Part shown: positions 3,701 through 63,790 of the stretch, in pieces
How positions within the stretch are numbered: position 1 is the stretch's first letter
How the letters are laid out: every line of letters begins with the position of its first letter
Source: Apostichopus japonicus
Lineage: Eukaryota > Echinodermata > Holothuroidea > Aspidochirotida > Stichopodidae
Direction: 5' to 3'
Length of the DNA: 64,000 bases
Assembly (NCBI RefSeq): GCF_037975245.1
Contig: NC_092582.1
Span: 14,548,077-14,612,076, forward strand
Notes under the pieces: generated by a model
Seen by the model: the letters and a program-made list of their open reading frames with translations, nothing else
What the model was told of the DNA's origin: nothing
Databases searched by the model: none
Translations under genes and position numbers: made by a program

Positions 3701-6700
3701 GGCGCCACCCAACATCACCATGTCGATAAGGGTGATAATCAAGGAGGGAGCCTGGCCGGAAGAGGTCGCGTCGAAGAAAAACCACTTGGCGACGATCATG
3801 AACACCAAGTAGCCGAAGATGGAGAGGAGGAAGATCATCTCCGGGATGAATTGACAGAAAATGTTGAGGTTACTCCTGAAATAACTTTAAGAATAAAATA
3901 GCAGAGAAGAAGATGGTTGCCACCATTAGAATGAAACTAAAGAAATAGTCAAAGAGCATCTATAAACGTTAATTCCCCCGATCAGAATCTAGTTTGTTAT
4001 TTTACATCTTCAGGGAATGCAGTAAGAAGGGTTTTACTTTCATTTCTCAGTGCTGAGACATGAGAGAACGGTTACTTTATTATCACAAAATGCGCGATTC
4101 ATACAGAAAACAAGGATCGGGGGAACGTAAATAACCATAATCGTAAATCTACATTTCATTTTAAAGAAGAGTTTCGTGGGGATATTTGACGATATTTATA
4201 ATAAAATCAAACATATTTCAGGTGTTTGATTAATAAAAAACCACAGACACCTGTATTTACTGCAGTCCTTCTACTACATTTCATGACAAATTATTAATAT
4301 TGAGTATTTATGATTACATTTAAATGAATTAAGAAAATTAAAAACAATAACAAAATGGTCAAAATATTTGAAATTCTTTCGAATTCCGGTAAAGAATTTC
4401 ACAAAATTTCAATATCTAGATTATTCTGATGTCAGTGGAACACTAAACCAATAAACGCACCACAGCTCTTGCAACCATTCTATTCCCTATTGCAGGCCTA
4501 TCCTTTTTCAACTTTTATGGTTGCTTTCTGTAACTCTGAAAGCTGGATTAACGGTTCACATTGAGATAATTCTTCTTGAGAAAGAGATCCCAAAGTTTCG
4601 CAAGGGGAACCAATGAATTTCCACGGCTAGTTGCGGTGTTAGTTGACACATCTGTACTTTGACCATAATCTTCTGCATATTTGAGTGATGACGCTTCCAT
4701 GACATGGTAAAACTATCCCTAGTTAACTGGATATATTTTTACACCCACCTGTGATTCAAAAAGCTGAGGAAAACACCAAATGTCATCTGGGTAACTCCAA
4801 AGATGACGGAAATTTTCATCTTGAACGAATTCAGAAAGCTCAGCTTATTTATGGCTACCTGCCAAATCTGAGATGCAGAGAGACAAAAAAGGAAAGACAT
4901 CAGAGATTAACCCAGCGGGGCAAATTCTTAACAGCTGAGACGACCAAATTTCTGTCCGGGACAACAAAATTCACCGGTGGACGATTACAAGTGGTTTGAA
5001 TCAAATTCAGATTGCGATGTGACTAAGTAAACAGGTCATAAGGTCAATTGGCATCAGCCTCCATCACTTTGGCGATACTTGATACGAAACATAAATAACT
5101 GGAAGTGTCTTCAATCCAGCCAAGGGTTGAGCTTTACTGGGCCAAAGCTGGCCATCTATTCACCAAACCTACTACATCTCTCCTGCGGTGCACAATTGGT
5201 CGGTCTTTCAAAATTTGCACCGACTTTGCAACAAATTTGCCCTGCCCAATGTGGTCATTTTACACTTCCATGATAATAATGAAAGCTTGATTAGTAAACA
5301 AAGTAATCTACATAAATTTACAAACAGTTGGGGGATATTACTATCTATTGCGACTGTTCTCTACCTCAAAGTTAAAAGGAAAGCACAACCATGTATTCAG
5401 CCCTATCAAACAAAAACAAAAAAAACACACAAACATAAAATGACACTGATCCATTTGATGGAGACACTTGGGCATTCTGTGCCACAAATTCCAGTATTTG
5501 CATACTTTTCCACACAAAGGCAGTTTTTAATTTCAAAATTTATATCATTATTATTATTGTTTTTCTTGAAAAAAGGGCACTTTTCACATATCAAGAGTGG
5601 ACTATTTCATTGCCAACATGGTTACACGGTAGAAAGGTACTTTTTATCACCAAAAACATGAGGAACTTCTAATTTATGAAAAAGGTCACTTTATTGCATC
5701 TCACAAAAAATTGAGATGAAGGCGGGGGGGGGGGGTGGGGGGGAATGCCACCTGTGTCCACATCCCATACATGCCAGCTCCAAAGTAGTTCTACAGGCAA
5801 TTTGTGATAAAGGATGGATTTTTGAAATTAAGTTTTATCAAAAAACAATCAAGAAAGGTTTTCCTTTACATGTTCATGTCGTGGCTTTGTTTTTTATGAA
5901 CATAAAAATAGAAAGCTCAAGAAAAAGACCTTTACTAAAGAGCTTTGACTTGACTGAACTACGAACACTCACCGGATCGATACCAAACGGATAGATGTAA
6001 TCCTTGCTGGTCGTATTAACTGGATTTAACTGAAAGCTTCCCTCTGATTCTAGGTCAGCTTCACTGCAATAAGAAAATTCATTGTGTCAAGCATTGCCAA
6101 AAAAAAACATAAAAAAATTATAACAAACCCCTTTGGCAGACATCCAAGTTCTCCCTCCCACTCCCCCCCCAAACCTCCTCCTCTTTCCCATGAAATCTTA
6201 TGGCCTCTTTAATCTTTCACCTAGCAGCCGTGTGACTTACTGAATAAGTTTATGACTTTTCAGAAGAGACTTGTACGAGAGGTCTGAAAAAGAAAAGCAA
6301 CGGCCACAAACATACGTCAACCAAAACACATACAATACACTGCTATTATCAGTTCCCAAGACATCTACCCTCTAGGTTATGTGCTCGGTCCCAGACATCT
6401 ACCCTCTAGGTTATGTACTCGGTCCCAAACATCTACCCTCTAGGTTATGTACTGGGTCCCAGACATCTACCCTCCATTATGTACTTGGTCCCAGACATCT
6501 ACCCTCTACTTAATGGACTCTGTCTGAGACATCTACCCTCTATGTTATGTGCTCGGTCCAAGTCATCTACCCTCTACTTTATATACTCTGTCCAAGACAT
6601 CTACCCTCTACTTTATGTACTCTGTCCAAGACATCTACCGTGGACTTTATGTACTGGGTCCGAGACATCTACCCTCTACTTTATGTACTCTATACCTTTA

Positions 6701-12700: not shown

Positions 12701-15700
12701 CTCCACTCGGGAAATAAACCGTTCCTCTTGCCGGCGGTGAAAGTCTCAGAGTTAACATTTCATTAATACTGTCTCTCGTAATTAAATATGATTCAATCAA
12801 ATTTTCAAACGATAGATCCCTTCCCCGGGCCGACTTTCACTACACTATTTTCATTGACTAGAGAAAGCTATATAAATACACCATAGTAGCCTACCTCGAG
12901 GTCTATCATCTCCCGGGGAGCGGGGGCCTCTGGATTGTCCGTCGCTTCTGGGATTGGAATCTGGCTTTTCAAGATCTCTCTTTCCAGATATCCTACGATT
13001 TAGAAAACAAACAAAAGCGGAAATAATCGGCTTAGTTTGAAATTTTTCTTTTAGCGCACAATATCAGGATCTACGTAAAACTATGAATTATGATAAAAAA
13101 ATTAATTGGTGATAAAAAATAATATAAAAACATTTGGAAAAAATATTTGGTCTTGACAAATATCTCAAATGTATCTACAACGTGATTATCTAAGAAATGT
13201 AGAACTTTAGAAGACCACAGGCTTTGATAACGACTCAGAAAACATACTGGCATGCCTTTCCTGGAGAATCAAGGGTTTATCTGCATCTGCGATAGAATGA
13301 TGCGGTAGAATGAGTCTGCTAAGGTTGTGGGGAGACAGGTAAGCGAGGAGCGAAGTAAATTACACTTTTCCTACAGACAACCAAACGGACCAAGATATTA
13401 AAGAGGCCATGACACGAAAAATCCAACTCATCGAGAGTAACTTCCTCTGAATCTATGAGAAAATCTATGTTCAAAACTATCCTCAACACCTTGAAAACCT
13501 CAAGGACTAATTAGTAATTAACGTTTTAATATTCGCATCCGAAAATAGATATCTGAGAATGCGATTTCACAACAAGACAATGATGACGTCATGTTAGGAA
13601 CACACGTGCAAAGCCCAGGCATGTATCGGATGCGCGACGATCATACCGTTCCATATACACGCACATTTACACTGAGAGAACAACCACTGTATTACGCTAT
13701 ATCGTTAGAAATTTCAAGTTTGTTTTACAACTGTTGTAAACTATCCGAGAGAAATGCCGGTCCGTTGTGTTGTTGGGGGCTGCATAAATATCATTACCCA
13801 TACAATTAGCCTTCATCCATGGCTGAAGGACGAAAAAAACACGGCGATTATGACCAAGTTAGTGCACAACACCAGCGCCGATTTCACTGGGCCTAGCCAG
13901 TATGCAGCTCCGAATGAAGCGAACACTTCACGGAAGCATACTACGATCCCTCCTTTTTGTTATGAAATAAAACAAATGGACTTTAACGGTTCGACATAAA
14001 AGAGTCATTCTTCTGTCAAGTAATCCACAAAAAACTACTCTGAAGACCAGATCGGGGAACAGGAAACCTCTAATGGGGCAAGTGGCGATCGTTAGGAGGT
14101 AGCGCGCCGAGCACTAGTAGTACTATAGTATTAGCGTTACTACACTGAAGTCGCAATAGACGAAGAGATTTTACTGTATCATCTAAATTAACACCCCCTT
14201 CATTGCTCTATTGTATACTAATAAGCTATGAGGTTAGCTTCAGAAGCGATGGGTTACATCTTCTTGTGAACAAATCTCAGTGCCCCAATTTATTTCTGGA
14301 ATATGCTGGATCAGTTAGTTATAGCAATAATTTCTTATTCCTATTCCAGGAAAACCATTTTTTATGTTGTGGAGGGAGTGGGGGTAATGGGGATGGGTCA
14401 AAATAGGTAGGTAAAAAGATTTTATTCCAAAGGGTGTTTAATTAAATCTCAAAGCGATTTATTTTAAAGTCACAGAGCCAAAAATTCACACAACATAGTC
14501 CAAGTGTTAAATCATTGAACAAAATTTATTCAATATCAGTTCTAGACAGTCATTCTGGACAATCTGAACTAACATTAACAACAATCATTGTATTATATGA
14601 CATAAAAGTAAAACTGTACTTTCCATAAACATGATCATTCTTAAATTACACTAATGTAATTTGTGACATCAAAGGAGGTTAAAAGAAAACAACTTACATG
14701 AATTTTTTGGCTTTAAGCCTACAAAGCAGTTGCATGTCCATCGCTATCAATTGTTGTTGTGACAAATTAATTAGAATAATCCAGAATCAAATACAATAAA
14801 GGGTTATTTAAACCAAGAAACACTGCACGAAGTAACTCACATGCAAAAATGTTACACAAGCATGACGACACGTACAACACTGATGGGCAATGTGAAACAC
14901 AGCATCACACGCATTAAAACAATCGAAGACCATTAACAGGGTGTACTGCTGAGTTTTTGAAGAAAGACTACAAAACAAACCAACTGCTGCTGAAGAAACA
15001 AAGTCTAAACATTCAAGAGTTCTGCTGCCTCCATTGGTCTTTATTATGACTTTTCTGTCAAATATCATTGGTGATATGGATATTTTGGCTTCCAGATTAA
15101 AGGTACGAATCAAACGTCTGGGAGGTAAATGCCCCTAAAAAGGTCAATGCCCGTTCCCTTATGCACATATTATATGACATCACGGTCACGCCAACACTTG
15201 TGTCCAAATGCTTCAAAACATGCCTTTTCTTTCATTGTTGATGTTGGGTCTGGAAAATAACCTTTTCATCCTGAATTAAAAGTCTTGAATTTCAATATAT
15301 CAACACTGAGGGAACCCTGACGGATTGATAATCCAACACAATTGTAGTTTAGAAAAGGTGTTCCTGGAGGAATTTCTCAACCAAGGCTTCCTATACAATG
15401 AGTTTTCTCCTGGCAACTTGAATCCAGTGTAATGACCATTGGCTGGAAAATCACTTCTGATCCTTTGGACTGCACATGATGGTAGCACAACCCTGACATG
15501 TCTTGCTAGGAACCCCAAGTATCATTGAACCTGTTGACCGTAGGCTATGTATCTGTACTGCCTGGGAAAAAATTTATGAAAGTTCAAAATGTATTAATGT
15601 TGGCCATGATGTCCACAATAACAAGCAGGCATACAATGTACAGTTATGGTTACATTTGTTGTGATTTTACACCTTCCGTGTATCATGAAACATTCTTTTG

Positions 15701-18393
15701 TTTCAGAAAATTGATTTGCAAAACTCCAGGCCAAAGTACTAGCCAAGTAATAATGAGTATGAAATAACACATATGCCTACCTAGCATGGCTGCATAATGC
15801 AACTTACATCCCCGAGCCAAACTTTCAGTATGCAACAACCCTACTAGTACTACACACTCTACATACGGGTTGTAAGTTACCGTAACACAACGCACAATAC
15901 GGTTTAGGGTGTTCCGCGAATTCCAACAACACATGCACAAAATGGACTGGATTTTGTTTTTAAATGCTTTGTTAATAAATTCTTACCACGTTGTATGTTC
16001 CTTGCAATGGTTTCGAACGGATTTCTTCTTCGATATGTTGTGGAGCTTCAATTTCGGCTCGTTTAACAGGCTCGAACTGATACGGTTCTAACACCTCCGC
16101 TCCACCCTCAACGTTCGGTTCAATATTGGAATGATCATCGCCTTCACTCTCTGCTTCGAATATGAGAAAGGGCGCTCTAATTATAGCCCAATTTCACTGC
16201 CTAGTGAAGAACCATTATCACTTTGAACTTCGGTTGCCACAATTGGTTCTGGATCCGCCATTTCACAGGAAATTTTGATTTGATATCGCACTTGTGATCG
16301 GTGTTTTGTTTAGTAACTACTAGTGGTATGTGTACTTGTCTACTGTGTACGTGAATGGTATATTCGGAGGATCGTAAATGTGTTCAAAACGTGACGTCAC
16401 ATGACGTCATGCGAATCGGAAAATTTTCGAGTAAACAAAGTTTCAAACGCCGAAAAGGGTAAATTCATTCTCAATTTTCGACTTGAAAAATCAAGTTTTA
16501 AACTGGCAGAATGGTTGATACATGTTCTAGAGAACATTCTTTGATGGATCCCAAAAATATAGGACTTTGAAATTTTCGTGTCATGGCCACTTTAATTCTC
16601 TGCAGTTTTCAACAAGGATCCTGATTAATTCTTATTGTCTTCCCTTTTAGTAATTCATTGTCTTTAATTATGTAACGCTTTTCTACAGTTTGCCTTGTCA
16701 AAATTGGTTCATCCCCCCCCCTCGGCCCTCATAAATCTCACCATAGAGAGCACTCCTAACTCAAGGCATTGTTGTTACAATCTCAATAGTAAAACTTGCT
16801 GGGAGAATCTACAGCTCTTCAAAATCAGCTACTCTGTGGGTAGTCATTGAAGTCAATAAGGATCACAAAATTGCATTTTCTCTGGTCGAAACTTACGTAA
16901 TTTGCGTTCCATTTCATCGCATCTTCGAACTTCATTTACAAACTTTCTACGGAATGCATTGACATCAGGGTTAAGCTGTTATTAAAAAAAAAGAAATACA
17001 TCAAAAACCCCGAAAATAATGCAAAAAGCTATCTTTACAAAATAGAAATGATCAAGATGCAGTCCAATATATGACATCATTAATATTTTAATGTAGAAAT
17101 GAACAATCTCATATCAAATACTTTCAATTCTGTAACATGGCAATCGTTTTCAGGTATTGTCAATTTATGGTCTTTTGTTATCAGACAAGCTACTGTCATT
17201 AGTTGCCTGAGAACATCAGGCAGTCAAAACTTAAACATGTTCACCCTGTGTCTCTCCTCCCCACCATCCCTCTCCAAACCAACCCCAACCCCCTTCCACC
17301 AATCCCCTCACCCCTTCCCAAAGCATCCCCTTAGTTACAAGAATCAGATGAACAACTGATTCACTAAATTACAATATTTTCTGTAATTAACGAATAGGGT
17401 ATGCAATAGGTAAACAGAAGCTAGATAAACTCATATACTAACCATTTAGAGGGATATGAGTGGTGTATTAAGATTATCATCTCCATATTGGCCGACCACT
17501 ATACAAACCAAAATTGCACAAGTAAAATTGCCTTTTAATTTACTCAAAATTCCCAATTTTACAGTACTCACTTCCATATGGCACCCACAATAAAACTATT
17601 CATCTATACAACCATTGAAAACTAATCCACCTTGACACCGTCAACCAGCTTATCGACCAAAACTGCCTTTCAATAAACAAGCATCTTGGTACTTACTACT
17701 TGAAAAAAGGTGGCATCCTCACCGAGCATAAACAAGCCAAAAAGAAGGTCAGGAATATGAGTAAATGTGATGGTAGGCCGCCTAGCACTGTAAATTTTTT
17801 TTTCAAATTTACTTAATAACCCTACTGCAAGAAGCAAACACATTGGGAGATATTTCCAATTCCAATGGTTTCGTGACAAAAATTTAAGAAAAACTTTAAG
17901 AGGTTGGTTTTAAATTTATGTGTAACTTAAAAGCTTCCATGCTGAAGAGTTACTGTACACAGGTCTGCTAATATTGTCCGATTTTACGTTGTTCCGAATC
18001 TTGCTGTATTGTTCTGTGTTGTTCGTAAATACTTCCAAACTGACTGGTTTGGGTATTTACTGTAAATATGACACTAGTCACCTGTCTCCTACACATGTAT
18101 TCACTCTAATCTACCTAGCGACTAGTGACATTCTGTAACAGTTTAACCACCTACAGTACAGATTAAAGTTTTCTCTCCTAGATATAGTTATTTACATACT
18201 ATACATAATAGACATACTGGACATTAACAATGATCAGCCCCCCCCCCCCCCCCCCAAATAAAACCTTTCAACTCACATCCCTAAACTGGACGAGTCCAAG
18301 TTCTCCCAACTCTGAGACACAAGAAAAAGCTGCCTCTGACTGAAGGAACAGTTGGGCCTTACACATCTCTTCGCTGCGAAACAGAGAACCCAT
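788..18393 (-). CDS. ATP6V0A: V-type proton ATPase subunit a, copy A (3' end outside window)
   Basis: Membrane subunit a of the V0 sector, which carries protons past the c-ring in endolysosomal or plasma membranes. Exons, in transcription order: 18277-18393, 16897-16975, 12895-12992, 12489-12617, 11509-11612, 10983-11109, 10301-10383, 9807-9900, 9445-9657, 8280-8430, 7659-7798, 6989-7134, 5973-6063, 4749-4867, 3674-3884, 3034-3147, 2053-2220, 788-905. All are bounded by GT-AG and keep one frame for about 767 residues. The start ATG opens [10 protein letters not shown], the family N-terminus. Exon 11 has the GDLGHG segment in the first membrane helices. Exon 18 has [12 protein letters not shown] with the essential arginine (residue 758; R735 in yeast Vph1). 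Exons 19-20, about 88 C-terminal residues by comparison with copy B, must lie left of position 1. Intron 2 holds a 3.2-kb transposon. Exon 15 is 6 bp shorter and exon 17 is 3 bp longer than in copy B. Confidence 0.95.
3300..3720 (-). repeat. Tandem repeat made from the 3' edge of exon 15 and its intron
   Basis: Four diverged units of about 96-111 bp. Each has a phrase like attaaagaga-tctttactgttat (at about 3315, 3420, 3531 and 3627) and, next to it, a sequence resembling the end of exon 15 of V-ATPase copy A with its splice donor (minus strand TATGGGGATGGAACG then gttagtaatat). In the other units this becomes ATGGTGATGGAATG gttaagag, ATGAATATGGTTG gttatt and ATAGGTATGGTCG gtcaga. Only the unit at 3674 abuts real exon sequence. 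Confidence 0.7.
6350..6705 (+). repeat. Minisatellite, about 32-36-bp unit
   Basis: About ten copies of a unit like cagacatctaccctctaggttatgtactcggtc, in intron 12 of V-ATPase copy A. Units vary (Ctaggt, Actttat, Ctattat after ACCCT). An open frame across it is a by-product of the repeat. Confidence 0.85.
8448..8662. repeat. AT/TA dinucleotide-rich tracts
   Basis: Two simple-sequence blocks: tatatttaaatatatatataa near 8450-8495 and (at)n at 8639-8661. Intronic, between exons 9 and 10 of V-ATPase copy A. Confidence 0.8.
8690..9320 (+). repeat. Tandem repeat, about 60-bp unit
   Basis: Roughly ten diverged copies of a unit containing gaatacagaatatattcttg, tttgatatactcctgatgta and tgtgactcacagtgtgattt, in intron 9 of V-ATPase copy A. 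The phrases 'attcttgtttgat' and 'gatttatgaatacagaata' recur every 55-62 bp. A TA-rich microsatellite (8636-8660) lies just before it. Confidence 0.8.
11915..11990 (+). repeat. G-rich direct repeat with G-quadruplex potential
   Basis: Two near-identical units of about 28 bp (gaggaaggcggggagggggg) in tandem, giving well over four G-runs of three or more. It lies in intron 4 of V-ATPase copy A. On the transcribed (minus) strand of that gene it is C-rich, so a quadruplex would form on the non-template-like plus strand of DNA, not in the RNA. Confidence 0.65.
13398..13420 (+). repeat. Left terminal inverted repeat plus TTAA
   Basis: TTAA followed by the 19-bp left terminus of the Kolobok-like element. 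It pairs with 16573-16595 in inverted orientation, with one mismatch in the first 19 bases; similarity fades after that. Confidence 0.75.
13754..13999 (+). pseudogene. THAP-like zinc-finger fragment in transposon
   Basis: An 81-codon open frame whose N-terminus ([13 protein letters not shown], then [13 protein letters not shown]) has the CxxxxC start and the basic/tryptophan spacing of a THAP DNA-binding domain. The following [18 protein letters not shown] fits the middle of the domain. The expected second half of the C2CH zinc site (Cys-x2-His) is not visible; the frame instead continues to [12 protein letters not shown] and stops. It is probably a decayed or 3'-spliced transposon gene. Family membership is from pattern memory, so moderate confidence. 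Confidence 0.5.
15300..16261 (-). pseudogene. Decayed gene with P2X7-C-like domain inside transposon
   Basis: On the minus strand an ATG at 16261 opens [17 protein letters not shown] and reaches a stop after 26 codons. The coding signal resumes one frame over ([15 protein letters not shown], then [17 protein letters not shown]) up to a donor at 15986. A later exon, after an acceptor at 15562, reads [12 protein letters not shown], a stop, then [18 protein letters not shown] and [13 protein letters not shown]. The PYxFEP segment plus the RxVxPSCxVxxIRxxFPxxxGxYTGF block match my memory of invertebrate proteins with the domain found at the intracellular end of the P2X7 receptor. With a frameshift and an in-frame stop it is broken. 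The cysteine-rich middle of such proteins was not found. Confidence 0.5.
16573..16595 (-). repeat. Right terminal inverted repeat plus TTAA
   Basis: Right end of the Kolobok-like element, the inverted counterpart of 13398-13420, again ending in TTAA. Beyond it the intron of V-ATPase copy A resumes. Confidence 0.75.
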
Positions 18394-40200: not shown

Positions 40201-43200
40201 AAAACACAAGTCCTTTGAAAGTGTTTCATACTAATTTTTGTTATCGGACGACGAATATTAATCAATCTATTTCAATTTGCAGGATCGAAATATACGTAGA
40301 CTGGGTCCCGGGGCTGTCGACGAACATGCGTCGTTAATTAATCTCGAAGAGATGGGAGGAGAGGAGAGTGATTTAGACCCTACGGTGACTTATCACGGGA
40401 CCGAAGACCAGGTCGGACCGGGCCATTCCGGAGAACACGAAGAGAAGGTATGGGATAGATAAGATGAATGGGGTATGAGATAAGACAATATTATTATTAA
40501 TACATTATTATAATATAGTATTGAGAAAGAGATTATCATGAATATAATTGTATTACATTTTGATGTTTTTTAACATATGAAATGACTCTGTTAAGTTTCA
40601 GGACAAATGTCAACAAAATAGCATAGGCCTTTCACAACTGTCATAGCATCATGCAGCTTTTTTCTAGGCTAATCTGCACATAGGAATCTGGACAGAATTT
40701 ATGAATGTCATCAATTTGATTTAGGTTAGGAACTGTTTTGATTGAACAAATTTTGAGGGAAGTGGGTATAGTTTGTAGCATTTTTATAAAACGATGCGCT
40801 TAGTTCATCGAGGGGAAAACAAGTAAATTCATGGGAGAATGCAGTATATATTTTCATAACTTTGCTTTAAGGTGCAATGATGTCAGTTGTTTACCAGTAA
40901 GAAATGATAAAGAGAAAATCCACAACGTGGAGTCTTAATGCAATATTGATTCTCACTTGGATTTTGCTTCAACTGTTTGTTTTTCTATCTTTTTTGGGCT
41001 TATGCTCTCTCCCTCTCCAGTTTGACTTTGGAGAAGTTTTCGTCCATCAAGCGATTCATACGATTGAGTTTTGTCTGGGTTGCGTCTCACACACCGCTTC
41101 TTATCTCCGACTCTGGGCCCTGAGTCTGGCTCATGCAGGTGAGGCTATTCATCTTGCCATTTTTTTTGGGGGGGTGGGTGAGGGGGGGGTTTGGTGCTGT
41201 AAGAATATTTTTGTGTGAACCATCTAAAGTAACAATGCCTGAAGGATTGGAAACCTCTCCTGCTTATATTAATTCTTTCGAGCAGAAGTGGAAGAGACTA
41301 TTACAGGCCTGCCTCTTAATTTCTCTGTACACTCATGGAAAAAGAGATGGCTTGATATAATAAAGCCTGCATATATCCATGTTCATCAGATGGTCAGATT
41401 TTTTCAAATGAACTTGGCTTTCTAATCCTTGGGAATCACTGTGAACTATAAACTAACTATATAACAACTGGCAATGTCTTTCTCCTTATTTTAAAGAGCT
41501 CTCAGAAGTGTTGTGGACTATGTTACTAGGTATCGGCCTCCAGACCAAAGGAACTGTTCTCGGGACCATCCTGATATGGTCTACATTTGCAGTCTGGGCC
41601 ACCCTTACCTTAGGTATCCTTCTCTTCATGGAAGGTCTGTCTGCATTTCTTCATACTCTTCGGCTTCACTGGTAAGTCTTTATCGATTAATTTTTTGTCT
41701 CGAGTTCATTCTTCACTGAAACCCCCCTCTCTTCAGGTTTGTCTAAATGGATATCTCGGTGGCAGACCACGTAAAAACTTATATCAAAGAGAAAAGTATT
41801 TCCACAGTTGCTTGTCTCAATATCTTGTCCCTTCCAGTTGTTTGAATGTAATCATATCTTGTTGAGTTAAATCTTCAACTACTCCAGGGAGTTGAATCAC
41901 AGTAGGGGGGTATCGTGATGTCATCTAAGAGGATGCTTTCCAAAAGCTTTTCTTAATTTATTATAACCTTCTTGTTCATTTATCCTCGAAACCTGATCCA
42001 TTTGAAATGTTTCGCTTAATAACCTGTCAATAATTTCTGTATTTAGAATTTCATAAAAATGCAGCTTCCTGTAGAAGTATTGTTTTCCCCTGTGGACAAA
42101 TGATTTGAAATTTTTAAAAACAAAAGTGCAAAGATTATTTTTCAGCTGAAGTGCTCTGATGACATCATTTAGTCTGCTGTTGCCAGATGCATAATTTACA
42201 AAATACCACCAAATTTGAAACATTTGTCTCTTCTTGATACAAAACGCAATGAGGATGTTGGTTTTGTTTCAAGATCCCGGAAATTTTCAGCGATTGTGCT
42301 AGGCAATCAACTTCATCCACCAGATCAGGTTACTGCTTAACAAGCAACTGTTAATGACTTAAAATTTCATTACATGGCATTATTTCTTGGATTTTTCTGT
42401 TTTGTTCCACTAACGTTTTTTGAGTGGGTTTTGGGTGAATCATGGAATAATATAGTACTGGAATTTTGTACAGCACTTTTGAAGGCTCTGAACCAGGTTC
42501 CCTTACAAAATACTATGGTTTTCTATGTACAAAGAATGCTATACATCATTGCAGTGGTAGAGCGATTTACTCGATTTTGCATAGCATTTTGCAAAGCGAT
42601 ACCGGATAAATTATTCCCTCTGAATGCTTTCTTGGTATCAGATATTTACAGCTTGGCCATAGGTTTTGCTTACGCATTGCTAAATAGTCAGTCCACAGTC
42701 ATTACACACACTGCAGCAATTTAAGGCACTCTGTCAGAGGCTGTGAAAGTGTGCAGCATAATCAATTATGTCTTGCAGCCTAGCTGCATGATGCTGCAGC
42801 CTAGCTGCAAGATGCTGCAACCTGGCTGCAAGATGCTACAGCCTAGCTGCATGATGCTGCAGTCTGGCTGCATGATGCTGCAGTCTGGCTGCATGATGCT
42901 GCAGTCTGGCTGCATGATGCTGCAGTCTGGCTGCATGATACTGCAGTCTGGCTGCATGATGCTGCAGCCTAGCTGCAAGATGCTGCAACCTGGCTGCAAG
43001 ATGCTACAGCCTAGCTGCATGATGCTGCAGTCTGGCTGCATGATGCTGCAGTCTGGCTGCATGATGCTGCAGTCTGGCTGCATGATGCTGCAGTCTGGCT
43101 GCATGATGCTGCAGTCAGGCTGCATGATGCTGCAGTCTGGCTGCATGATGCTGCAGTCTGGCTGCATGATGATGCAGTCTGGCTGCATGATGCTGCAACC

Positions 43201-44178
43201 TGGCTGCAAGATGCTGCAGTCTTGCTGTATGATGCTGCAGTCTGGCTGCATGATGCTGCAGTCTGGCTGCATGATGCTGAAGTCTGGCTGCATGATGCTG
43301 CAGTCTGGCTGCATGATGCTGCAACCTGGCTGCAGTCTGGCTGCATGATGCTGCAGTCTGGCTGCATGATGCTGCAACCTGGCTGCAGTCTGGCTGCATG
43401 ATGCTGCAGTCAGGCTGCATGATGCTGCAGTCTGGCTGCATGATGCTGCAGTCTGCATGATGCTGCAACCTGGCTGCAGTCTGGCTGCATGATGCTGCAG
43501 TCTGGCTGCATGATGCTGCAACCTGGCTGCAGTCTGGCTGCATGATGCTGCAGTCAGGCTGCATGATGCTGCAGTCTGGCTGCATGATGCTGCAGTCTGG
43601 CTGCATGATGATGCAGTCTGGCTGCATGATGCTGCAACCTGGCTGCAAGATGCTGCAGTCTTGCTGTATGATGCTGCAGTCTGGCTGCATGATGCTGCAG
43701 TCTGGCTGCATGATGCTGAAGTCTGGCTGCATGATGCTGCAGTCTGGCTGCATGATGCTGCAACCTGGCTGCAGTCTGGCTGCATGATGCTGCATGATGA
43801 TGCAGTCTGGCTGCATGATGCTGCAACCTGGCTGCAGTCTGGCTGCATAATGCTGCAGTCTGGCTGCATGATGATGCAGACTGGCTGTATGATGCTGCAG
43901 CCTGGCTGCATGATGCTGCAGCCCTCTTAATATCTTTCTTTTGACACAGTGCCTGAGTATATTGCCATCTTACCCAATTTAATACCTGAAATGTCCTGTG
44001 GCATGACAACAGAAATGATAGAAACTTAGATTTTTACTTGATTTCCAGATGTACTGTAAATTAATCTTCTCTTTTTATTGTTTACAGGGTGGAGTTCCAG
44101 AACAAATTCTTTCGAGGCGAAGGCTATGCATTTTGTCCATTCTCGTTCAAAGTGATTCTTGAGAACAGAACTGAATAA
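28234..44178 (+). CDS. ATP6V0A: V-type proton ATPase subunit a, copy B (complete)
   Basis: Second V0 subunit a gene, 856 residues, close to the roughly 830-840 of animal relatives. Exons: 28234-28350, 29081-29159, 29833-29930, 30641-30769, 30982-31085, 32142-32268, 33096-33178, 33520-33613, 33840-34052, 34589-34739, 35248-35387, 36281-36426, 37135-37225, 38263-38381, 39400-39616, 39903-40016, 40283-40447, 41021-41138, 41497-41671, 44088-44178. Every junction is GT-AG and the summed length, 2571 bp, is in frame from ATG to TAA. The first half is the cytosolic N-terminal domain ([10 protein letters not shown] start). Membrane helices begin near [15 protein letters not shown] in exon 11. The proton-path arginine is residue 759 in [12 protein letters not shown]. 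The acidic segment of exon 17 is the most diverged part relative to copy A. Intron 19 (2.4 kb) contains a 1.15-kb minisatellite. Intron positions match copy A exactly, so the pair arose by local duplication. Which copy serves which compartment cannot be told. Confidence 0.97.
35580..35664. promoter_or_regulatory. Cluster of three CCAAT boxes in intron 11 of V-ATPase copy B
   Basis: CCAAT at 35580-35584 (plus) and ATTGG at 35628-35632 and 35660-35664 (CCAAT on minus), spaced about 48 and 32 bp, in a locally GC-richer patch. NF-Y-type promoters show such clusters. It could be an internal promoter or chance. Confidence 0.25.
42775..43922 (+). repeat. 1.15-kb minisatellite, 21-bp unit, with higher-order structure
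   Basis: About 54 units of GCTGCATGATGCTGCAGTCTG and variants, in intron 19 of V-ATPase copy B. Because 21 is divisible by three the array is open in several frames on both strands (SGCMMLQ on plus, PDCSIMQ on minus), which is not evidence of coding. Variant units (a cctagctgcaagatgct type, a cttgctgtatg type, a gatgatgcag type) recur in the same order. A block at about 43110-43340 is repeated at about 43550-43780. Confidence 0.95.
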
Positions 44179-46082: not shown

Positions 46083-48109
46083 GCACACAATCAAAACAAA
46101 ATGACTAGTATGTAAATAAAAGAATAGTAATTACAATTATGAATGTAATACGAAAGAATTTTAGAGATGAAATTTAGGTGTTTTTAACTGGGCACACTGA
46201 GGGGGGGAGATCAATCAATACCTGGGACAATACTTGATGTGGGAGGTGTGGGGAGGGGAAGATACAGATGGGGTGGGGGTCAAAACTAAAAAGAATATAC
46301 AAATGGTTACAGCTAAAGCCATGGTAAGGCGAAGCTATATATGGATTGTACCACACGTCATTTTAAAAACGGCTGTCTGTGATTTTTGTGCAGTGATAAA
46401 TTTAGTGATTGTCTTATTAAAGAAATGAACTGTGGTCTGTAAGTGATATTGGGAACAAAGTACTCTGGGCGGTGTACTCTGGGGGGTAAGGTTGGGTGTC
46501 AGCCGCCATATATATTAGGCAAAATAAACATGGCCTTGTGACAAAACTGATGAAATAGCAGATGGATTATATTTACAGTTGGTAGTTACTTTTCCTTCTA
46601 GTTTTGTTAGGTTTAAGGATGGTACATTCTATCCCTAGTGACCTCACAGGACACAGGAATCAAACACAAATTAATGACACATGCATTGATTATAATATTT
46701 AATTTCATATAACATAACACGTCACTGTTTTACATGTGTTGAGAGTCGCTTCAGAAGACTTGAAAATCTAGCAAATTTGAGTCATGATATGTTACAACAC
46801 TGCTGCAGACTCAGTTATTTACTATATCAACTACAAACATTAATGTTCATACGATTAACACTTTCCCCATCGGCATAGCCAGGAGAGAGGGTGGGGGGTA
46901 GGTATAATTCCTCCGCAGACAATTTTCAGGGACGAAACAGGGACGTCAAAAATGTGACACAAGAAAAATAAATAGCCATGATATAACATGAGATCTACTT
47001 TTCAGGAAGTTTTCCTCATTAGCCATACAAGCATATATAAGCAAGATCTCTCGGAATAAGTTAACTTTAGTTCAATGATTGACACTTTTAGTCAAAGTTC
47101 CGTACATAGTATGGACTTGATCGATGTCTTTAAATGACAACACAACATCTCCATTTGGGTCAATTTATATTATATAGAGATATGAGATGTACTCCATGTA
47201 CCTACCAACATGTACTATGGGGCATCAGGGTATAGGCCTTTGTCCCTCTACCCGTACACACACAAACACATGCAAAGCTGTATACACTAGCAACATTTGT
47301 ACAGTACTAAAAATATGTAGTAAAAGTGCCAGAACTGATAGCACCATCATGCATCAAAGTCCTGTTACCGAATATTTCTTGAAGAGGAAGGGAGATCCCC
47401 TCAACAGGCCGGAGGTAAGCCCAATTTTGTCGAGCTAGTGATATATAGCAAACTAAAGTACTGTGATGCCACCAACAAAGTGATTAAAATGTTTGTGGTA
47501 CACTAAGAGGATTGTTCCTTAAAGTTAATTTATATTGATCATAAACAGTAATTCTTTTTTGAGTTCTTGACAAAATCATAGAAAGAGTTGTGTTTTCACT
47601 CATGGTACGTGCTTAAATGGCTTTCGGACTGAAAGTGATCTCATCGCTGAAATGTAAACGAATCGGGAGTGAAACATCACTCCGCTTGGATCTGTCACGA
47701 AGAACTGTCTCTGATGCAAATTTCAACGGACGTGCTGATTTCTGTGGTGTACGATAAGCATTATTGTGCACTTCTTATTTCTTAGTTTTATTTTAATTCC
47801 TCAAGCAAGACTCTCTCTTATCAGTTTCTGTCCACTCTTTGTTATGGTTTTATGTGGTTTAATATGGTTTTATGGTTATGGCCCATCTTAAATTGATAGT
47901 GACTCATTTTGCTCCAACTACAGTGCTAGTGTCCTAGAATCGCTATGGTAAGAGTTGTCTTTCAACTCCAGTCCAATCATATTCATGGCAAAACCATGAC
48001 TTTTCCAGACCTTTCCAACAGTCAGACTTAGGTCTCTGTACGTTGAAATATTTGTCTTCTCTCCGGTATGTACGTGTACTGCACATTTACTCAATACAGT
48101 GTGTCCAAT

Positions 48110-48782
48110 GGCTGAAAAGATTTCACAATGTTTCTTAAATCAAAAACTTCCAATGGCTGAAAAGATTTCACAATGTTTCTTAAATCCGAAACTTCCAATG
48201 GCTGAAAAGATTTCACAATGTTTCTTAGATCAGAAACTTCCAATGGCTGAAAAGATTTCACAATGTTTCTTAGATCAGAAACTTCCAATGGCTGAAAAGA
48301 TTTCACAATGTTTCTTAAATCCGAAACTTCCAATGGCTGAAAAGATTTCACGATGTTTCTTAAATCCGAAACTTCCAATGGCTGAAAAGATTTCACAATG
48401 TTTCTTAGATCAGAAACTTCCAATGGCTGAAAAGATTTCACAATGTTTCTTAAATCCGAAACTTCCAATGGCTGAAAAGATTTCACGATGTTTCTTAAAT
48501 CCGAAACTTCCAATGGCTGAAAAGATTTCACAATGTTTCTTAAATCAGAAACTTCCAATGGCTGAAAAGATTTCACAATGTTTCTTAGATCAGAAACTTC
48601 CAATGGCTGAAAAGATTTCACAATGTTTCTTAAATCCGAAACTTCCAATGGCTGAAAAGATTTCACAATGTTTCTTAAATCAGAAACTTCCAATGGCTGA
48701 AAAGATTTCACAATGTTTCTTAAATCCGAAACTTCCAATGGCTGAAAAGATTTCACGATGTTTCTTATATCAGAAACTTCCA
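48110..48782 (+). repeat. Minisatellite, 45-bp unit, 15 copies
   Basis: Highly uniform tandem array of a 45-bp unit containing CCAATGGCTGAAAAGATTTC and ACAATGTTTCTTAAATC. Units differ mainly at AAATCC/AAATCA/AGATCA and ACAATG/ACGATG. It is open on both strands (unit translations LPMAEKISQCFLNQK and EVSDLRNIVKSFQPL) because 45 is a multiple of three. It lies 130 bp beyond the RABGGTB poly(A) signal. Flanks share the phrase catgacttttcca. Confidence 0.95.
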
Positions 48783-62581: not shown

Positions 62582-63790
62582 TGAATATGATGAGCAGCAG
62601 AGCTACCAATAATACAACAAAGATTAATTTCATCTGCAAAGAAAGGGAAACATTTGTCATCGAAAACGGACGACGATAAACTAAAAGTGTGGCAGATAGC
62701 TGTTTTGAACACCAAAGAAAGAACAGAAAAAAATCTTGTTTTTCACATTCAAAACCCTTGTTCCAACATATACCCGATAAGACCAAATTTTCCAACATAT
62801 ACCCGATAAGACCAAATACCAAGCATCTGACCACTCCCTGACATACTGTGGGGAAACAATGGCACCTATTGCAACAACACTGAACTTAGTTCAGTGCTAT
62901 GAAAGAACCAAAAGAAAACATTACATGTCAAGATTTTGTTGAGAAATTACTCATTTGCACTCCCATACATGCCACTGATGTTCAATGGATGACAGTGCAC
63001 CACAAGTGGTTGATAACTTTCTAAAACACTGGGAAATAAAGGCACTGTGGGAAATAAAGGCACTGTGGGAAATAAAGGCACTGTGAGAAATAAAGGCACC
63101 ATGAGAAATAAAGGCATTGTGGGAAAAATGGCACTGTGGGAAACGAGGCACCATGGGAAGTAAAAGCACTGTGAGAAATAAAGGCACAGTGGGAAATAAA
63201 AGGCACTGTGGGAAACAAAGGCACCATGGGAAATAAAGGAACCATGGGAAATAAAGGCACTTTGAGAAACAAAGGCACCATGGAAATAAAGGCACTGTGA
63301 GAAACAAAGGCACTTTGTGAAATAAAGGCACTGTGGGAAACAAAGGCACCATGGGAAATAAAGGCACCATGGGAAATAAAGGCACTGTGAGAAACAAAGG
63401 CAATGTGAGAAATAAAGGCACTGTGAGAAACAAAGGCACCATGGGATATAAAGGCACCGCGGGAAACAAAGGCACTGTGGATAAACGAAGGCACTGCATT
63501 CAACACAACTGTCATTAAAATCAAAGCAAAACAAATGGAAACGACTCCTTTTTCACAATACAGTAATTACCACAGCACAAATGGTAAGAAACATTCCAAC
63601 CTTGCTACTTACTGGAAAATATAACAAAATAATAATACAAATCTATCAGCCAGTTTTCTAACTTTGCTAAGGGTTATAATACTAAGGCAGTACTTGTAAG
63701 AAATGCTTACCTTAAAGTCTCGCCACCAAAACTGACTCCTTAGACCTTTAGCACTCACTCTGAAGACTGAGGCATTAAAGGCTAGGTCAT
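62582..63790 (-). CDS. VAMP-type R-SNARE, C-terminal exons (5' part outside window)
   Basis: Two exons read in frame: 63711-63790 and 62582-62633. The first encodes the end of a SNARE coiled-coil and its juxtamembrane motif (LAFNASVFRVSAKGLRSQ, then FWWRDFK). The second encodes the start of the tail anchor (MKLIFVVLLVALLLIIF). The pattern LR-x-Q-x-WWR-x-x-K before a single terminal helix is typical of vesicle-associated membrane proteins and is closest in memory to VAMP4, but subfamily is uncertain. The earlier SNARE-motif exons, including the zero-layer arginine, lie beyond position 64000. The last exon is unresolved. After the donor at 62581, acceptors ending above 61294, 61162 or 60587 all give an open frame to a stop; the 61140-61162 option yields the short luminal tail SRLLLAT expected of a VAMP. 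The intron between the two exons holds an 18-bp minisatellite. Confidence 0.75.
63027..63492 (+). repeat. Minisatellite, 18-bp unit
   Basis: About 25 copies of GGCACTGTGGGAAATAAA with variants GGCACCATGGGAAATAAA and GGCACTGTGAGAAACAAA, in the intron between the two visible VAMP exons. Two dimer-like variants alternate irregularly. The open frames on the minus strand are repeat artefacts. Confidence 0.93.

Follow-up and report, generated by a model that had tools for sequence, protein, structure and literature searches.

Remnants of THAP and KolX (P2X7-C) genes in convergent orientation within a Kolobok-like, probably trans-mobilised transposon of Apostichopus japonicus

How do the THAP-type start of a transposase gene and a piece of a gene for the C-terminal domain of the P2X7 receptor come to lie, in convergent orientation, within a single transposon, and is their pairing meaningful? 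The question is raised by a locus in the 64-kb stretch of the Apostichopus japonicus genome analyzed here (the window; coordinates given without a contig or locus name refer to it), which a preliminary description had likened to Kolobok transposons. Kolobok elements have 5'-RR/YY-3' ends and use TTAA sites, and KolX, a protein of the Kol0 lineage of Kolobok, has been identified as the P2X7 ballast domain (Kojima and Bao 2022; PMC9587614). A THAP domain is carried by the Kolobok transposases of Xenopus (PMC6004289). The ballast domain has been described across animals by Rump et al. (2020; PMC7016195), and the string "transpos" is absent from the main text of that article.

The window contains, at 13398-16595, a TTAA-flanked DNA transposon of 3,190 bp with AG...CT inverted ends that agree at 18 of 19 bp (Table 1) and lie within inverted arms of 30 nt that are 90% complementary. 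The exact bounds that had been claimed, namely TTAA on both sides and 18/19 termini, were confirmed: with up to 3 mismatches, TTAAAGNGGCCATGACACG occurs twice in the 64 kb, precisely at both ends of the element, compared to 0.03 occurrences expected, and none of 100 shuffles reached two. The AG...CT termini follow the 5'-RR...YY-3' pattern of Kolobok, and the 4-bp TTAA duplication that is the Kolobok target site is present at both ends of 11 of the 12 aligned copies of the element (the right end of L015 is unmatched). A search with the joined flanks for an empty site of the window insertion recovered the insertion locus itself and a short repeat, with no match spanning the join among the 40 of 1447 candidates scored. 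Directly to the left of the element lies a short high-copy repeat (13302-13361), with at least 41 other matches among 40 of 1447 candidates scored.

Table 1. Features of the window element and of complete related elements in the Apostichopus japonicus genome
Feature	Location	Strand	Length	Details
Left TTAA target-site duplication	13398..13401	.		seen directly in the sequence
Left terminal inverted repeat, begins AG	13402..13420	+		18/19 versus right end
TGACGTCA, CRE-type palindrome	13584..13591	.		182 nt inside left end
Decayed THAP-containing first exon of a lost transposase, ATG 13754, frame broken	13652..14055	+		homology to L005 THAP exon
Decayed last exon of KolX/P2X7-C gene, in-frame TGA, after acceptor-like TTTTTTCCCAG	15300..15561	-		P2RX7_C profile and tblastn
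Probable first exon of KolX-like gene, ATG 16261, PYQFEP, donor GTAAGAA at 15986, frame broken	15987..16261	-		inferred
Two TGACGTCA palindromes (16392, 16402)	16392..16409	.		182 and 192 nt inside right end
Right terminal inverted repeat, plus strand ends CT	16573..16591	-		18/19 versus left end
Right TTAA target-site duplication	16592..16595	.		seen directly in the sequence
Family A	C21:13379608-13390318 and C9 copy		~10.7 kb	ends alike 16/20 (AGRGGCGTGGTCGT)
Family B	C5:9984704-9998825 and further copies		~14.1 kb	ends alike 15/20
Family C	C7:5557224-5567450 and C16:8062582-8072809		~10.2 kb	ends alike 17/18
Family D (around L043)	C17:25324578-25336602		~12.0 kb	perfect 18-nt inverted ends, TTAA

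In the host genome (671.6 Mb, 35 contigs), the 22-nt terminus with at most one mismatch occurs 484 times, compared to 0 occurrences for the reversed control, and a DNA search (41 matches; 40 of 526 candidates scored) identified at least 38 near-full-length copies, including that in the window, at 97-100% identity. We aligned the window copy with 11 of the 37 others. The mean pairwise identity of these 12 copies is 98.6% (range 97.8-99.75), which indicates that the spread of the window family is recent; the outer 12-nt flanks, as printed, vary between copies. All 12 copies share the single TGA in the KolX/P2X7-C exon as well as the broken THAP-like frame (its start was matched in 11 copies and its middle in 12), suggesting that it was an already dead copy that was amplified, that is, in trans. 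In four siblings, each about 2.1 kb long and almost identical to the window element at the ends (L005, L023, L024 and L026), the THAP exon is present but P2X7-C could not be convincingly matched, so not every element that ends in this way carries the pair. Among the first 100 of the 484 terminus places, no complete element bounded by the window element's own termini was found.

The plus-strand THAP remnant matches, in two pieces in different frames, the THAP exon of L005 (tblastn, E 5e-24), a 2.07-kb sibling with ends nearly identical to those of the window element, and the L005 exon itself scores 51 bits against PF05485. For the window piece alone (13709-13999), there is no Pfam match; the THAP reading holds by homology because the piece matches an exon that scores as THAP. 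The THAP-type start that had been claimed on the plus strand is upheld in this way, and the THAP domain expected of a Kolobok transposase is accordingly recognized in the window element by homology to the sibling exon only. The profile comparison suggested at the outset thus gave a split result, with P2RX7_C found in the minus-strand exon but no domain called in the THAP piece.

On the minus strand, where the acceptor-like TTTTTTCCCAG ends at 15562, the segment 15300-15521 scores 24.7 bits against Pfam P2RX7_C (cut-off 23.5), and 15557-15414 matches intact relatives with a best E of 2e-10 (tblastn). The similarity to the P2X7 ballast domain that marks KolX of the Kol0 lineage is therefore present in the window as a remnant, and in relatives in intact form. 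The PYQFEP exon may encode the N-terminus of this P2X7-C-like gene; since it has no convincing match in 12 relative loci (9 distinct places; best E 0.93 and 0.94), its assignment to the KolX-like gene is only inferred. A PYxFEP-type motif is present in 13 of the loci L001-L043, every one of them a copy of the window family. Of the broken minus-strand gene in the preliminary description, the P2X7-C exon stands, and the PYQFEP exon is a plausible part of the same gene.

The remainder of the interior is poor in recognizable sequence. With intact KolX proteins as queries (E 0.01), the cysteine-rich middle exon was not detected in the window element; with transposase proteins as queries (E 0.01), neither was the transposase core, so the element has no detectable DDE transposase with DxxH of its own and is a non-autonomous derivative and not an autonomous member of Kolobok. 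A Pfam scan of seven window frames identified P2RX7_C in one and otherwise nothing, and for the central part of the element, approximately 1.25 kb, none of the searches made detected any similarity. Elsewhere in the window, tandem arrays were observed with 34-bp units (6354-6690) and, each with an open frame of at least 150 aa, with 21-bp (42774-43921), 45-bp (48104-48782) and 18-bp units (63030-63496). There are no tRNAs in the window and no Rfam families at the gathering threshold.

Beyond the window family, we delimited four TTAA-bounded families (A-D; Table 1) that encode a Kolobok DDE transposase and a P2X7-C-like gene on opposite strands, tail to tail. In two of the four (C and D), the transposase starts with THAP. 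In particular, the family D element contains THAP (64.9 bits), DDE-like exons (tblastn) and KolX (42.3 bits), and is matched by both window remnants (E 2e-6 and 6.6e-9). Family C contains a THAP exon and a transposase that is 36% identical to that of family B; its KolX is recognized through exon matches that are weak (E 1.3e-4 and 5.3e-5). The frames of family A are a 548-aa transposase and a 178-aa KolX; family B is supported at its right end by three copies and at its left end by two. In families A and B, there is no recognized THAP exon, and the first-exon candidates at the transposase ends match no Pfam family; these candidates (L040:4255-4584 and L037:2427-2672) weakly resemble each other (E 0.013). 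Next to one complete Kolobok copy lies a frame (L037:2889-3599) that we take to resemble a reverse transcriptase.

In the transposases of four relatives, D198, D265, D288xxH291 and E416 are invariant, and these are likely to be the catalytic residues. Two of them score above the Pfam Mutator-transposase cut-off (26.5) and one just below it (25.6); the family A transposase has no Pfam match. The predicted structures, with mean pLDDT of 41 for the transposase and 48 for KolX, were too poor to use.

The association between the two genes recurs elsewhere in the genome. In four loci fetched with wide flanks, the P2X7-C frames are intact (~168-205 aa), and in all four KolX is convergent with a DDE-like transposase or its tail; at L020, it lies tail to tail with a transposase tail and scattered pieces only. 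One intact KolX aligns with residues 465-592 of P2X7, matching P2X7 structures (E 4e-22). In three intact KolX frames (169, 205 and 178 aa), P2RX7_C is the sole family above the cut-off, and the combination of P2X channel domain and ballast that defines the P2X7 receptor is not found in the KolX frames scanned.

To place these loci in a wider count, we merged 89 of the 150 matches of one P2X7-C-like search with all 46 of another into 131 loci, many of them short or decayed; the 61 matches left out all score at or below 32.5 bits, and almost all appear to contain a single TGA, as in the window family. The comparison sets were 60 transposase loci (from all 93 matches) and 145 THAP matches (all of those obtained), and the candidates scored were 150 of 471 and 107 of 107 in the P2X7-C-like searches, 150 of 557 for THAP and 79 of 319 for the transposase. 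Of the 131 loci, 42 have a related transposase no more than 10 kb away (0.23 expected), convergent in 40 cases and on the same strand in 2; for the remaining 89, no transposase match was found at this distance. A THAP match is found at up to 12 kb from 16 loci (0.68 expected), 15 of these convergent and 1 on the same strand, and 10 of the 145 THAP matches are within 12 kb of a transposase, 8 of the 10 upstream on the same strand. Since the families are multicopy, the pairs counted are not independent of one another. This count supersedes an earlier, smaller one (41 KolX matches against 79 of 93 transposase matches), in which 31 of 41 were near and 31 of 31 convergent. The pairing, on the recurrence of which the preliminary description had made its proposal depend, thus does recur, both in these counts and in the four TTAA-bounded families that carry both genes, and the idea that P2X7-C-like families belong to Kolobok transposons is supported in the Apostichopus japonicus genome. 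Given that the connection of KolX with Kolobok is already in print (PMC9587614), this main idea was right, but it is not a discovery. In the literature searched, one paper links KolX to Kolobok, and two mention both Kolobok and P2X7, the second being a review (PMC9319628) in which each term appears once.

Taken together, these observations make it very probable that the window element is a non-autonomous Kolobok of the Kol0 (KolX-carrying) kind, internally deleted and decayed, mobilized in trans and recently brought to high copy number. Its ancestor would have had a THAP-headed DDE transposase gene running inward from the left end and a KolX gene running inward from the right, tail to tail. 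An internal deletion may then have removed the catalytic core, with both leftover gene pieces decaying. The dead copy would have been cut and pasted into new TTAA sites by the transposase of an intact relative, whichever relative supplies it to the window family, through recognition of the ends, and would only recently have reached high copy number.

Membership in the piggyBac type, which likewise uses TTAA, is a much less probable origin, with very little weight in our assessment. The target sites agree with it, the cysteine exon was not detected in the window copy, and a few piggyBac families have KolX-like C-termini without most cysteines (PMC9587614); however, the AG...CT termini fit the 5'-RR/YY-3' rule that sets Kolobok apart from piggyBac (PMC9587614), whereas piggyBac membership would call for TTAA sites with termini that break it. 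In addition, a THAP exon is present in the window element, and the relatives encode a DDE-like protein with D..D..DxxH..E invariant in four sequences, two of which pass the Pfam Mutator cut-off. We give even less credence to a chance joining of two unrelated elements or gene fragments between inverted repeats, which would make the THAP-KolX pairing meaningless. The decay of both pieces, the middle of about 1.25 kb without similarity and the four same-ended siblings with THAP and without convincing KolX could all be so explained, but the convergent layout is shared by 40 of the 42 neighboring pairs of KolX and transposase and by 15 of the 16 of KolX and THAP, and it recurs in independent complete elements with exact ends; on these grounds chance joining was rejected.

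It could also be imagined that the element was kept and amplified because KolX or THAP protein is still being produced and serves some purpose, and the splice-like signals and subterminal CRE-type palindromes that remain would be in keeping with such a role. Against this, one and the same TGA in the KolX exon and a broken THAP-like frame are common to all 12 copies, and the search of the window copy revealed no cysteine exon; on these grounds selection for the encoded products was rejected, and it appears highly improbable. We therefore retain the interpretation of the element as a decayed, trans-mobilized Kolobok, in whose intact relatives KolX, with zinc bound, probably plays an accessory part in transposition.

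A further property of these elements concerns the subterminal palindromes. TGACGTCA occurs three times in the 64 kb, all within the element (0.34 expected; 0 of 100 shuffles reach 3). Of 17 elements of the window family and its siblings, a count that leaves out L015 with its one unmatched end, 15 have TGACGTCA near both ends, with its position retained in the siblings, and two near a single end. In the THAP families C and D, half sites are found at 171, 182 and 186 bp, that is, at 3 of 4 distinct ends, compared to an expectation of 0.008 per 21-nt slot at the density of 28 other loci. The two families without a recognized THAP exon do not follow this spacing: in family A, full sites are confined to one end, at 74 and 88 bp, and family B has no TGACGTCA site near its ends. 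Because the motif was picked after the fact, this pattern is a lead only. We take TGACGTCA to be a CRE-type site, presumably associated with CREB/ATF. A speculative and, in our judgment, rather unlikely possibility is that KolX-type Kolobok elements retain such a site, full or half, some 180 bp from each terminus, where it would act either as a promoter directing both convergent genes inward or as a docking site, so that host CREB/ATF signaling would drive the transposon.

Among known systems, the closest is Kol0 (Kolobok-1_XT type; PMC9587614), with the same TTAA sites and AG...CT ends, a DDE-like DxxH transposase, here found in the relatives, and a second protein with the ballast domain. Kol0 encodes the transposase and KolX, whereas a transposase core is absent from the window family, whose two gene remnants are dead. 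The convergence of KolX with the transposase is counted here; orientation is absent from the relevant passages of that article (PMC9587614). The THAP-containing Kolobok elements of Xenopus resemble the present ones in the THAP domain at the start of the transposase and in terminal inverted repeats with AG ends (PMC6004289); the text of that study makes no mention of KolX or P2X7, whereas here THAP, DDE-like exons and KolX are combined in one element. Similarity to the P2X7 ballast (ZCD) domain and nanor-like proteins (PMC7016195) is seen in the alignment of intact KolX with P2X7, but KolX is not a receptor: it is transposon-encoded, with 131 merged matches in this genome.

The window family is, thus, a new non-autonomous family of the KolX-carrying Kolobok kind, and what is added here to the published picture is the in-genome count, the complete elements and the subterminal TGACGTCA located ~182 bp from each end. 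The count supports the view, already in print, that the ballast domain of P2X7 is a transposon protein. By the same token, invertebrate genes annotated as P2X7-like may be transposon genes, and the complete elements provide concrete loci for testing the role of KolX in transposition.
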